Positions 13,331 to 22,111 of a stretch of DNA of 22,111 nucleotides are shown piece by piece. The translations under genes and the position numbers were made by a program. The DNA comes from a virus. Under the pieces are notes generated by a model. The model was given only the letters and a program-made list of their open reading frames with translations. It had not been told where the DNA came from and ran no database searches. The number at the start of each line of letters is the position of its first letter. The stretch's first letter is position 1. The stretch is taken from positions 1-22,111 of IMG/VR virus record IMGVR_UViG_3300033143_001259; one strand, 5' to 3'.

Positions 13331-13876
13331 ATGATGGTAGATTATTTATTAGGAGTACCAGGAAAACTAAAAACTTTACTGGATAGATGGACTGCAACAA
13401 AAGCAGGCTATCTTGATACCACAGTATCAAGCAGGGCTAGTGCATCAGCATTAACAACTGTTGATACTGTTGTTGATGCTGTTTTGCAAGACACATCAGT
13501 TATGCAACCAAAAGTTACTGACATATTAATAGATACAGCAAGTATTCAACCAAATGCTGCTGCCATTTTACAAGATACAGCAAATATGCAACCAAGACTA
13601 GCTAGTATGTCTTTATATGGGACTACAGTTAGAAGAACTGTACAAGGTTCTGTTAGTATTTCTGGAAACTCCAGTACAACATATGATCTTACGATAGGTA
13701 CGGTAACAAATATAGCAAAATGTGTGGTGACTACATGTGCGTTCACAAATAGTTCTGGATATTCATGGCCAGCATCTGGTCTTGTTGTAAGTACAACGAA
13801 AGTTAGAGTATATGTACCGTCAAATACCGGTAGCACTGGTGTGTATTATGCCGTAACAGTAGTGGAGTTTTACTAA
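13331..13876 (+). CDS. Fibre-like protein with N-terminal 14-residue repeats and C-terminal beta domain
   Basis: Up to 181 residues. The N-terminal half (about 1-95) is helical and contains three consecutive 14-residue units, LQDTSVMQPKVTDI, LIDTASIQPNAAAI and LQDTANMQPRLASM (residues 52-93). A 14-residue period equals two heptads, suggesting a parallel (perhaps trimeric) coiled coil. The C-terminal half (about 98-181) is a beta domain with SVSISGNSSTTYDLTIGTV and VRVYVPSNTGSTGVYYAVTVVEFY. A shaft plus head like this is typical of small fibre or tip-decoration proteins. TAGGAGAT lies at 13321-13328. Of the two adjacent ATG codons (13331, 13334), the second has the better spacing, so the product may begin MVDYLLGVPG. 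Stop overlaps the next start (TAATG). Confidence 0.6.
   Translation: MMVDYLLGVPGKLKTLLDRWTATKAGYLDTTVSSRASASALTTVDTVVDAVLQDTSVMQPKVTDILIDTASIQPNAAAILQDTANMQPRLASMSLYGTTVRRTVQGSVSISGNSSTTYDLTIGTVTNIAKCVVTTCAFTNSSGYSWPASGLVVSTTKVRVYVPSNTGSTGVYYAVTVVEFY
13484..13609 (+). repeat. Three tandem 42-base units coding a 14-residue repeat
   Basis: Residues 52-93 of the fibre-like protein consist of three uninterrupted 14-residue units with the consensus L-[QI]-D-T-[SA]-x-[MI]-Q-P-[KNR]-x-x-x-[IM], i.e. 3 x 42 bases. The amino-acid match is stronger than the DNA match, so the repeat is old and kept by selection on the protein. Confidence 0.75.
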
Positions 13877-18451: not shown

Positions 18452-19123
18452 ATGGATTACGCCAACACTAAAGATATCATTCTGAAAAGTAATTTTTTAT
18501 TAGACAAAGATGAGCAATTCATTGAATCTAATATAATGAATATACAGGATAACTGGAAGAAACGCCAGACTTTTCGTACTGAAACAGAAATGAGAATTTC
18601 TGTTTTGAATGATCTTAAATTTCCAACACCTGCTGCTAAGTATTGGCAATGTGTTAGAGAACAGGGCGTATTCTATGAAAATCTTGTGTCATTATCGTTT
18701 GATTACAGGCGCAATAGAATTGAACAAAAGAAATTAAAGAAGGAAATTGAAGAAGAATCTGATGAATTAGACAGAGAGTTACTTCAAATAGATTTAGAAG
18801 AAAAGCAATTTGGTCAACTTAATATGGAACATGTTGCTAAAAATCGTATGCGAGAAATTCGCCTATGGTCACAATTAATGGAAGAGTCTATAAAAGATGA
18901 TCCATCGTTTGACACAACAGATGTAAATACACACCAGCTAAAAAGCTACGCTATGCGTTTTGAAAATCAAATGAAAAACATAGGTAATGCTTCCCCTTCA
19001 GAAATGTCTAATCTTGTTGGGCAATATGAATCCTCTATTAAACAGCTAAAGAAAGAAAAAAACCAAACTAAATTAACACAGTCTAATAACGTAAGAGCTG
19101 TAAGGTTCGATTTACAATACTAG
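18452..19123 (+). CDS. Coiled-coil protein upstream of the Kelch protein, unknown function
   Basis: A 223-residue, charged, mostly helical protein. Recognisable segments: FPTPAAKYWQCVREQGVFYENLVSLSFDYRRNRIEQKKLKKEIEEESDELDRELLQIDLEEKQFGQLNMEH (about 53-125, a long heptad-rich helix), then AKNRMREIRLWSQLMEESIKDDPSFDTTDVNTHQLKSYAMRF. There is no signal peptide or TM. Its place directly before the Kelch protein suggests a chaperone or adapter for that product, or a DNA-terminus or replication-type protein displaced here. I do not recognise a family. AAGGA lies 6 bases before ATG 18452, and 9 bases separate its stop from the next start. Confidence 0.55.
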   Translation: MDYANTKDIILKSNFLLDKDEQFIESNIMNIQDNWKKRQTFRTETEMRISVLNDLKFPTPAAKYWQCVREQGVFYENLVSLSFDYRRNRIEQKKLKKEIEEESDELDRELLQIDLEEKQFGQLNMEHVAKNRMREIRLWSQLMEESIKDDPSFDTTDVNTHQLKSYAMRFENQMKNIGNASPSEMSNLVGQYESSIKQLKKEKNQTKLTQSNNVRAVRFDLQY

Positions 19124-19132
19124 GAGTAAGTC

Positions 19133-22111
19133 GTGGGATATTGGAGTTCTGGAGGTGATTTAAATACTGCTAGATATGGTTTAGCTGGTGCTGGTACTCA
19201 ATCAGCAGGATTATCTTTTGGAGGTCTTACTGGAAGTTATTCAGCAGTAACTGAATCTTATAATGGAGATTCTTGGACTTCAGAGAATGATTTAAATACT
19301 GATAGATACTTATTAGCAGGAGCGGGAATTCAAACAGCTGCTTTATCATTTGGTGGAAATCCGACTGCGCCAACCGAATCATACAATGGAACTTCTTGGA
19401 CTTCTGAAAATGATCTAAATACTTCTAGATACGGATTAGCAGGCTGTGGAACACAATCTTCTGCTTTATCCATTGGAGGTAACCTTCATCTTTATACTAC
19501 TGAAGAATATAATGGAGTTTCATGGTCTTATTCAGATGATTTAAACATAAGTAGAACATCAAGTGCGGCATGTGGAACAACTAGTGCTTCTTTATGTTTT
19601 GGAGGAAACAATGGATCAACATATCCATTTTATTCTACAGAAGAATATGATGGTGCTTCATGGAGTAATGTTAGTGATTTAAATGTCCGTAGAGAATCAT
19701 TAACAGGTTGTGGAACTCAATCTGCTGGGTTGTCATTCGGTGGTCTTACCTATGATTTAGTATTTTTATATGATACTGAAAAATACGATGGAATTGTATG
19801 GAGTTATTCAGATCATTTAAATGCTGGTAGACATAGATTAGCAGGAGCAGGAACTCAATCAGAAGGATTAACTTTTGGCGGATATGATGGATCATCTTTA
19901 GCAACAACAGAAGAATATGATGAAACATCATATAAGATGTTACCACTTATAGGAACTTGGTCTACATCAAATGATTTAAATACAGCTAGATATTGTTTAG
20001 CAGGATGTGGAACTCAAACCGCAGGTTTATCTTTTGGTGGGCAAATATCCGCAGTTGATTATTATGGATATACCGAAGAATACGATGGAAGTTCATGGAC
20101 TAATTCTAATGATTTAAATACTGCAAGGTCAAATCTAGCAGGTTGCGGAACTCAAACCACAGGTTTATCTTTTGGTGGTCGTGCTGGTTCTTATATAGCA
20201 GTAACAGAAAAATATAATGGAACCACTTGGGCAACTGCAAATGATCTAAATGCTGACAGAGGGTATCTAGCAGGTTGCGGAACTCAATCAGCAGGTTTAT
20301 GTTTCGGTGGTTATGATGGATCTAATTTAGCAACTACTGAATCTTATGATGGTACTTCTTGGGTTTCTGAAAATGATCTAAATACTGCTAGAACATCATT
20401 GTCAGGTTGTGGAACTCAATCTTCCGCTTTATCGTTTGGTGGATATATTTCTGGGGCATTGGGATTAACTGAAGAATATAATGGATCTACTTGGTCTACT
20501 TCTAATGATTTAAATGTAGCGAGACACAAATTAGCAGGATGTGGAACTCAAGAAAATGCACTATCTTTTGGTGGAACAAATGGTTTTTTGTTAGCAGAAT
20601 CTGAGCAATATAACGGAATCTCTTGGATTATTTCTGGAGCGTTAAACACAGCTAGAGATAGTTTGGGAAGTTGTGGAACTAAATCAGCTTGTTTATCTTT
20701 CGGTGGTTATGCTTCATCTGCTTTAGTAACTACCGAAGAATATAATGAACCAGCAGAAGCTACAGACGTACCAGATTACGAAGTTTCAGGAGCAAGAGTT
20801 TGGGTAACTGTTAGTGATTTAAATGAAGCTAAAAGAAGTGTTGGAGGTTGTGGAACTAAAACTGCCGCATTAGCATCTAATGGTTATGATGATTCTAGTT
20901 TATTAACAACTGAAGAATATAATGGAACTTCTTGGTTTATTACAAATGATACCATTGCAGATCGAATGGGGCCAGCAAATTCAGGAACACAAACATCTGC
21001 TTTATCTTTTGGTGGTTGGGAAGGATTATCAGCAAGCGATACAACTGAATCATATAATGGCACTTCGTGGACTACTGAGAATGATTTAAATCAGGCTAGA
21101 CAATATTTATCAGGATGTGGAACTCAAACAGCTAGTTTATCTTTTGGTGGTTATCTTGGTCTTACAGAAGAATATAATGGAACTTCTTGGATTATTGTCA
21201 ATAGTTTAAATGAAAATAAAGTAGAAGGCTCTGGCGCTGGTACTCAGACCGCTGGATTAGCTTTTGGAGGATCTTATCAAAATGACACAGAAGAGTATAA
21301 CGGAACAATCTGGACACATACTAGTCAATTAAATGGTGAACCAGATGGCTTAGCTGGTAGTGGTGTTCAATCAGCAGCATTAGCTTTCGGTGGTAATAGC
21401 ACTGAAACAAGAACTGAAGAATATGATGGAACATCATGGTCTTATAAATCTAACTTAAATACTGGTAGAAGATCTTTAGGAGGAGCTGGCACTACAATAT
21501 CTTCACTATCTTTTGGCGGAGATGATGGAGATTATTCAGCAACAACTGAAGAATACTCAGATGGCGAATCTTTTGTAATAACTCAACCTGAACCATATAC
21601 TGTATGGGTCATTGCTAGTGATCTAAATACTTCTAGACATAGATTAGCAGGTTGTGGAACGCAGTCAGCAAGTATATCTTTTGGTGGATATACTACAACT
21701 GATTCAGCAGTTACTGAAGAATACGATGGTACTTCTTGGACTTCTGAAAATGATCTAAATACTACTAGATGTAGTCTTGCTGGAGCAGGAGTTCAATCAG
21801 CATGTCTGTCTTTTGGCGGGTATGATGTAGGTTATTTAGCAACAACTGAATCATATAACGGAACTTCTTGGACTTCTGAAGATGATTTAAATACAGCTAG
21901 ATTACGTCTAGCAGGAGCTGGAACACAGACCGCTAGTTTATCTTTTGGTGGAACACGACTTTCTGCATCAGCTGTAACAGAAGAGTACAATGGAACTTCT
22001 TGGACAACTTCTAATGATTTAAATACTGCTAGATATAGTTTAGCAGGTTGTGGTACTCAGTCAGCGGCATTATCAATCTCTGGATTCGATGGCATTGAAC
22101 TATCAACAATT
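19133..22111 (+). CDS. Giant Kelch-repeat protein, putative receptor-binding fibre (partial at window end)
   Basis: A GTG at 19133 with AGGAG (19122-19126) six bases upstream opens a frame that runs without a stop to the window edge (at least 993 residues). It starts MGYWSSGGDLN, and from Trp4 on consists only of Kelch-type repeats of about 41-50 residues, with consensus W-[ST]-x-x-[NS]-D-L-N-[TV]-[AS]-R-x-x-L-A-G-[CA]-G-T-Q-[ST]-x-x-L-[SC]-F-G-G-Y-x-G-x-x-x-[AT]-T-E-E-Y-[ND]-G-[TS]-S. I count 22 blades in the window. The FGG and T-E-x-Y motifs are the Kelch double-glycine and the Y half of the blade; the Trp opens each following blade. Kelch blades form beta-propellers, commonly six. Long linkers follow blades 6, 12 and 18. 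It is probably an extracellular binding protein. No N-terminal anchor domain is visible. Confidence 0.85.
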   Translation, partial: MGYWSSGGDLNTARYGLAGAGTQSAGLSFGGLTGSYSAVTESYNGDSWTSENDLNTDRYLLAGAGIQTAALSFGGNPTAPTESYNGTSWTSENDLNTSRYGLAGCGTQSSALSIGGNLHLYTTEEYNGVSWSYSDDLNISRTSSAACGTTSASLCFGGNNGSTYPFYSTEEYDGASWSNVSDLNVRRESLTGCGTQSAGLSFGGLTYDLVFLYDTEKYDGIVWSYSDHLNAGRHRLAGAGTQSEGLTFGGYDGSSLATTEEYDETSYKMLPLIGTWSTSNDLNTARYCLAGCGTQTAGLSFGGQISAVDYYGYTEEYDGSSWTNSNDLNTARSNLAGCGTQTTGLSFGGRAGSYIAVTEKYNGTTWATANDLNADRGYLAGCGTQSAGLCFGGYDGSNLATTESYDGTSWVSENDLNTARTSLSGCGTQSSALSFGGYISGALGLTEEYNGSTWSTSNDLNVARHKLAGCGTQENALSFGGTNGFLLAESEQYNGISWIISGALNTARDSLGSCGTKSACLSFGGYASSALVTTEEYNEPAEATDVPDYEVSGARVWVTVSDLNEAKRSVGGCGTKTAALASNGYDDSSLLTTEEYNGTSWFITNDTIADRMGPANSGTQTSALSFGGWEGLSASDTTESYNGTSWTTENDLNQARQYLSGCGTQTASLSFGGYLGLTEEYNGTSWIIVNSLNENKVEGSGAGTQTAGLAFGGSYQNDTEEYNGTIWTHTSQLNGEPDGLAGSGVQSAALAFGGNSTETRTEEYDGTSWSYKSNLNTGRRSLGGAGTTISSLSFGGDDGDYSATTEEYSDGESFVITQPEPYTVWVIASDLNTSRHRLAGCGTQSASISFGGYTTTDSAVTEEYDGTSWTSENDLNTTRCSLAGAGVQSACLSFGGYDVGYLATTESYNGTSWTSEDDLNTARLRLAGAGTQTASLSFGGTRLSASAVTEEYNGTSWTTSNDLNTARYSLAGCGTQSAALSISGFDGIELSTI
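19142..19957 (+). repeat. Kelch blades 1-6, first predicted six-bladed propeller
   Basis: Six blades, the sixth ending in an aberrant linker (EEYDETSYKMLPLIGT, ending at 19957) in place of the usual EEYNGTS. Blades 1-2 have AGAG and 3-5 have ACG/GCG before T-Q. Length is 272 residues. Confidence 0.8.
19958..20800 (+). repeat. Kelch blades 7-12, second predicted six-bladed propeller
   Basis: Six regular blades, nearly all with GCGTQ/K. The last ends in the long Pro/Asp/Glu-bearing linker EEYNEPAEATDVPDYEVSGARV. Length is 281 residues. Confidence 0.8.
20801..21604 (+). repeat. Kelch blades 13-18, third predicted six-bladed propeller
   Basis: Six blades that deviate most from consensus: blade 13 has LASNG for LSFGG, blade 14 replaces DLN with DTI, and blades 15-17 have shortened loops. 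Blade 18 ends in the linker EEYSDGESFVITQPEPYTV. Length is 268 residues. Confidence 0.75.
21605..22111 (+). repeat. Kelch blades 19-22, start of a fourth propeller (cut by window edge)
   Basis: Four near-consensus blades (WVIASDLNTSRHRLAGCGTQ and following), the fourth cut by the window edge after FDGIELSTI. Blades 19-20 share a 33-base identical stretch with blades 2-3. Confidence 0.8.

Follow-up and report, generated by a model that had tools for sequence, protein, structure and literature searches.

The analysed window, i.e. the whole stretch of 22,111 nucleotides, comprises bases 1-22111 of a 30,596-base IMG/VR record of an uncultured tailed phage and closes with a plus-strand reading frame that starts with a GTG codon and is still open at the window end (Table 1). 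Cutting the encoded 993-residue protein at its TEEY motifs yields 22 kelch-like blades in units of 40-46 amino acids, the last of which is truncated by the window edge, and thus reproduces the blade number given in a first-pass annotation of this DNA. At 18 of the 21 junctions, the Y of TEEY is separated from the following W by exactly four NGTS-like residues, while the three longer linkers occur only after blades 6, 12, and 18, with the same end coordinates as annotated before. With three odd junctions among 21, a placement at these positions has a chance probability of p = 0.00075, and a placement at any regular interval (d, 2d, 3d) one of p = 0.005. Propeller 1 opens with an outer D strand containing the W and closes with a C strand containing TEEY, and the linkers separate a C strand from the D strand that follows. 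Propeller 3 is the most degenerate of the blade blocks. Blades at equal hexad positions are no more alike than the others in an internal comparison of the window protein (96.0 at the same position vs. 95.1), and the chain therefore does not consist of recent copies of one propeller.

Table 1. Features of the array gene and its immediate upstream region.
Feature	Position	Strand	Size or residues	Basis or remark
Partner gene, directly upstream of the array	18452..19123	+	223 aa	Conserved beside kelch arrays in relatives
AGGAG, likely ribosome-binding site	19122..19126	+	6 nt before GTG 19133	Sequence
Multi-propeller kelch-like protein, 5' part of gene	19133..22111	+	993 aa	ORF and blade parsing, phrog_27227
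Propeller 1, blades 1-6	19133..19918	+	Residues 1-262	Blade parsing, AlphaFold2, Foldseek, sequence match
Linker 1	19919..19957	+	13 aa, residues 263-275	Blade parsing and pLDDT dip
Propeller 2, blades 7-12	19958..20743	+	Residues 276-537	Blade parsing, AlphaFold2, Foldseek, KLHL12 phmmer
Linker 2	20744..20800	+	19 aa, residues 538-556	Blade parsing
Propeller 3, blades 13-18	20801..21556	+	Residues 557-808	Blade parsing, KLHL2 phmmer
Linker 3	21557..21604	+	16 aa, residues 809-824	Blade parsing
Propeller 4, blades 19-22 in window	21605..22111	+	Residues 825-993	Blade parsing

The end of the protein lies outside of the window, as had been noted in the first-pass annotation. A scaffold gap of 24 N follows directly at the window end (G000 22112-22135; same contig, L003), and past this gap blades 23 and 24 are encoded, followed by a non-kelch C-terminal region. 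If the gap conceals no whole blade, the total would amount to 24 blades, i.e. 4x6, and the next break in the array would again comply with the six-blade spacing. An in-frame TGA codon inside blade 23 (G000 about 22200-22202) may represent a genuine stop codon, an error of sequencing, or a sign that the downstream part is a separate ORF, and no other contig bridging the gap was found in an exact DNA search. For marine viruses, kelch repeats have been reported to be nine times more common in long reads than in assemblies, because short-read assemblies are fragmented by repeats (PMC9238414), so that both the gap and the TGA may be assembly effects. Of the at least four propellers in series that were proposed previously, three are thus complete in the window, and the fourth crosses the gap and the TGA.

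Further features were noticed elsewhere on the contig. A tandem repeat with a 42-base unit (2.7 copies) is present at window positions 13482-13595 inside an ORF at 13331-13876. An NAD-dependent DNA ligase is encoded in two pieces on the minus strand (L003 9448-11597, G000 about 28447-30596), one with the OB fold and one with the zinc finger-HHH-BRCT part, separated by about 1 kb containing two ORFs without Pfam match; this segment looks like an inserted element, and no intron RNA was recognized there by Rfam. The region L003 7334-9088 codes for a 584-amino acid protein with repeats around GDLFSINGISSGNT and without Pfam match.

Propeller fold and six-blade period

An AlphaFold2 model of blades 1-12, based on a 60-row alignment, shows a pLDDT of 94 and a pTM of 0.71, the latter value being expected for two confident domains of uncertain relative orientation, and the sole internal stretch with pLDDT below 50 (residues 267-270) is located inside linker 1. 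About half of this model (246-285 columns) is matched in Foldseek by the kelch domains of NS1-BP, KLHL17, Keap1, and the designed SAKe6, with target-normalised TM-scores of 0.77-0.80 in the better matches and poor superposition in some others. As judged from these matches to six-bladed kelch domains, each half of the model closes as a ring of six four-stranded blades. The closure at six proposed in the first-pass annotation is supported in this way for blades 1-12 and, above all, by the blade counts of the relatives, whereas propellers 3 and 4 are putative closed six-bladed units as deduced from their sequences. An AlphaFold2 run on the whole chain (993 aa, 9-row alignment) yielded a pLDDT of 30. 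The ring of each propeller is probably completed when its leading W-containing outer D strand pairs with the last blade. Such a closure by the N-terminal strand would create a free join at the very site of the linkers, between C and D strands, and spacers would be possible only between propellers.

A hydrophobic-GG motif as well as the conserved Y and W recur in the window protein with the spacing of kelch repeats, and the W, R, G-Q, GG, and TEEY columns are conserved across 715 blades. A sequence match to a kelch protein was obtained for block 1 (E = 2.7e-8), and phmmer matches for block 2 with KLHL12 (E = 2e-10) and for block 3 with KLHL2 (E = 1.5e-4). No Pfam or NCBIfam kelch model scored above its curated threshold on the window protein, and sub-threshold kelch hits were seen for the relatives L016 and L060. 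As judged from this pattern, the protein belongs to a divergent kelch subfamily. It matches the profile of phrog_27227 (E = 7.9e-209, in seven stretches), a PHROG family of 617 positions and unknown function whose profile also matches relatives with 6 and 12 blades; the length of this family fits about two six-blade propellers, whereas the window protein is longer, with 993 amino acids and continuing.

The period of six is a general feature of the relatives, which were collected from IMG/VR as well as from MAG and single-cell contigs and carry 6, 12, 18, 24, or 30 blades. The pooled collection comprises 291 complete ORFs after removal of redundancy; 235 of them contain exact multiples of six in the HMM count, and 280 of the 291 do so after adding missed blades implied by gaps of 85-100 amino acids, a heuristic rule which misfired on L086 because of a long linker. 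Apparent 5- and 11-blade relatives mostly turned out to contain missed degenerate blades, as indicated by such gaps, with at least one true exception of five blades (L059 9825-10664). Every sixth junction is extended in the relatives as well: 92 out of 97 contain at least eight intervening residues (median 10, vs. medians of 3-5 elsewhere), and the gene boundaries also fall at multiples of six blades. Loci that were recovered with the partner gene rather than with the kelch repeats show the same picture. Hundreds of relatives carry blade numbers divisible by six in separate genes of about 320 and 610 amino acids. The number of propellers in complete arrays ranges from 3 to 8, with 4 or 5 as the most frequent values, and the propellers are either fused in one gene or split as 1+2+2, 2+2+2, 1+1+2, and so on. 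In 12-blade relatives, similar blades are often direct neighbors (separation 1), as expected under blade-by-blade exchange, and a second peak occurs at separation 6. The maintenance of multiples of six despite this similarity of neighboring blades suggests selection for ring closure. With blades occurring almost only in sixes across hundreds of phage genes, and with propeller boundaries as the places where genes are joined or separated, the fold apparently fixes the count in a repeat protein that changes fast.

Two further arrangements were observed among the relatives. A 103 kb contig binned as SAR324 carries seven tandem genes of about 757 amino acids (L086 597-16926), each with about 12 blades, corresponding to 14 propellers in a row. 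A 24-blade protein (L006 5578-10773, also in L026 and L033) additionally contains DUF5122 beta-propeller repeats (E = 1.3e-45), apparently in and around the linkers, as if another propeller type were interleaved with the kelch propellers.

Partner gene and tail setting

The partner gene, coding for about 225 amino acids in the relatives, is found beside the array in 33 of the 34 kelch loci with 1.5 kb flanks, and a search seeded with the partner shows kelch repeats in 57 of the 61 partner loci with 2 kb upstream, some of these loci being near-identical copies, so that the counts are not fully independent. The partner may act as an assembly factor or an anchor for the chain. No PDB homolog of weight was found for the partner, the only hit being a weak one to DivIVA (E = 0.1), and an assignment to phrog_1409 was rejected, because the weak match of the window partner (4e-5) was not reproduced for a relative. 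A gene of about 100 amino acids with a GKxF motif is present within or beside the arrays in 33 of the 34 loci (e.g. L018 7742-8035 and L068 7726-8016) and is absent from the window. In two loci, genes resembling 2OG-oxygenases, sulfotransferases, and nucleotidyltransferases by eye follow downstream of the array, after the partner (L068 9885-13771, L018 9851-13244); their products may possibly modify tail proteins or surface sugars.

Upstream of the array, the window codes for a tape-measure protein (PF20155) and a tail-fibre-J-like gene, placing the array in a tail gene neighborhood, and fusions to tail modules are seen in relatives. In L004, the 30-blade protein runs on into a tail-protein domain (phrog_6079, E = 1.7e-20), 12 blades are fused to collagen and tail-fibre repeats in L084, and the array of L006 adjoins tail fibre genes. 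Among cultured phages, the structural protein QHZ54126.1 of the Paenibacillus phage phiERICV contains exactly six Kelch_1 motifs in the same circular phase as the window protein, on a tail-collar-fibre N-terminus, and its gene follows that of tail protein I. It differs from the window protein by comprising one propeller only and by passing the Pfam kelch thresholds, and shares only 27% identity with a relative of it. Taken together, gene location and fusions point to the tail as the place of the array protein. The window protein itself begins directly at the first propeller strand, lacking the N-terminal head present in most relatives, and no tail-attachment N-terminus or attachment domain was recognized in it, which is why the chain is described here as working like a tail fibre rather than being filed as one.

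Variable blade faces and probable function

The most variable columns among the 715 blades, as judged by entropy, are 12-13 and 29-36, which belong to the DA and BC loops. In kelch domains, the substrate is bound at the bottom face, which is made up of these two kinds of loop, whereas the AB and CD loops make up the top (PMC6650413). A comparison of 14 close orthologue pairs shows a substitution rate of 0.19 in both the DA and BC loops, compared to 0.02-0.09 in the strands. Blades also diverge far faster than neighboring genes between related phages: in phage pairs with partners of 90-94% identity, the identity drops to 80% for the other ORFs and to 45% for the best kelch pair, and the kelch proteins of L228 and L234 share 57% identity between flanks of 95-99% identity, with conserved head, mid-linker, and tail. 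Over 92 comparisons, identity amounts to 79% in the N-terminal head, 59% in the mid-linker, and 51% in the blades. Diversity-generating retroelements introduce adenine-directed changes into a short variable repeat and come with a template and a reverse transcriptase; the divergence between L228 and L234, with indels, is spread over all blades and does not look like such a target, as far as the sequences indicate. The fast divergence could alternatively result from immune or defence escape or from relaxed constraint.

The chain of six-bladed kelch propellers probably represents a tail-attached, multivalent, and fast-diversifying host-binding appendage. In the proposed scheme, the gene would encode three complete propellers in the window and a fourth continuing past the gap, with the DA and BC loops of each propeller making up one variable face. 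The string of several propellers, most likely attached to the tail of the virion, would then allow multivalent and rapidly diversifying binding to ligands on the cell surface, probably glycans or surface proteins. A comparable layout is known from the LRP5/6 ectodomains, which are multivalent extracellular binders with several six-bladed propellers in series, although these are YWTD propellers with EGF spacers and belong to an unrelated family. The KLHL/Keap1 domains and SAKe6 share the six-bladed kelch fold of the window model as well as the DA/BC ligand face, yet each of them occurs as a lone propeller, either in an E3 adaptor of eukaryotes or in a designed protein.

The main rival to multivalent host binding is a structural decoration, such as a tail whisker or another capsid or tail adornment, with non-specific binding to environmental surfaces or glycans, a role which would be suited by long chains but which we consider rather unlikely. 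Kelch-type propellers matching the model in Foldseek are encoded by phage CBB (CBB_550/552/554), which carries whisker-like tail hairs and contains CBB_552 in its virion (PMC5259590), and by the Pseudomonas jumbo phages phiPA3 (gp360), PS119XW, and Noxifer, whose kelch proteins are annotated as structural. The proteins of CBB and these jumbo phages show only 10-17% sequence identity to the window protein, and in the literature on them neither a chain of 3-5 propellers nor a tandem array with such a partner was found. A purely structural role would not need blade faces that outpace the neighboring genes in change, and the tail-protein domain fusion in a relative and the tail-fibre N-terminus in phiERICV rather suggest tail tip or fibres.

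Kelch domains are commonly intracellular protein binders, as in Keap1 and the KLHL family, and neither anchor nor signal was seen in the window protein. It might be made during infection as a secreted or intracellular binder outside of the virion, e.g. of host proteins or defence factors; this appears improbable in view of the location of the array among tail genes, the fusion of relatives to tail modules, and the structural annotation of the phiERICV protein next to tail protein I. It is hardly conceivable that the repeats arose as an artefact of assembly, or that they form an open solenoid scaffold which does not close and has a coincidental period of six, since the gap and the in-frame TGA at the window edge and the breakage of short-read assemblies by repeats (PMC9238414) are outweighed by the AlphaFold2 and Foldseek matches to closed six-bladed propellers and by the multiples of six in hundreds of relatives, which refute this reading in general.

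The preferred reading as a host-binding appendage extends a known kind of protein, since single kelch propellers on phage tails have been described before; the novelty lies in the chaining of propellers, in the rule of six blades, and in the partner as well as the hypervariable blades. There is perhaps an even chance that the arrays constitute a widespread, undescribed class of adhesion devices in uncultured phages, in which trains of 3-8 propellers, made from interchangeable genes of 1 to 5 propellers, would combine a conserved frame (heads, ends, and partner) with hypervariable faces into a multivalent variable-binder array. At the limits applied, 50,697 records of cultured phages contained no match to the window protein or to the partner, where low-complexity filtering may hide matches and records near the genome of the window were possibly left out, and the hits of the relatives were limited to a distant one and a marginal one. 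Provided that the arrays bind hosts, uncultured phages would offer in them a natural collection of variable propellers. A contig from a Pelagibacteraceae single-cell genome (L088) carries a kelch array together with the partner and the small gene, hinting at a SAR11 host for some of the relatives.
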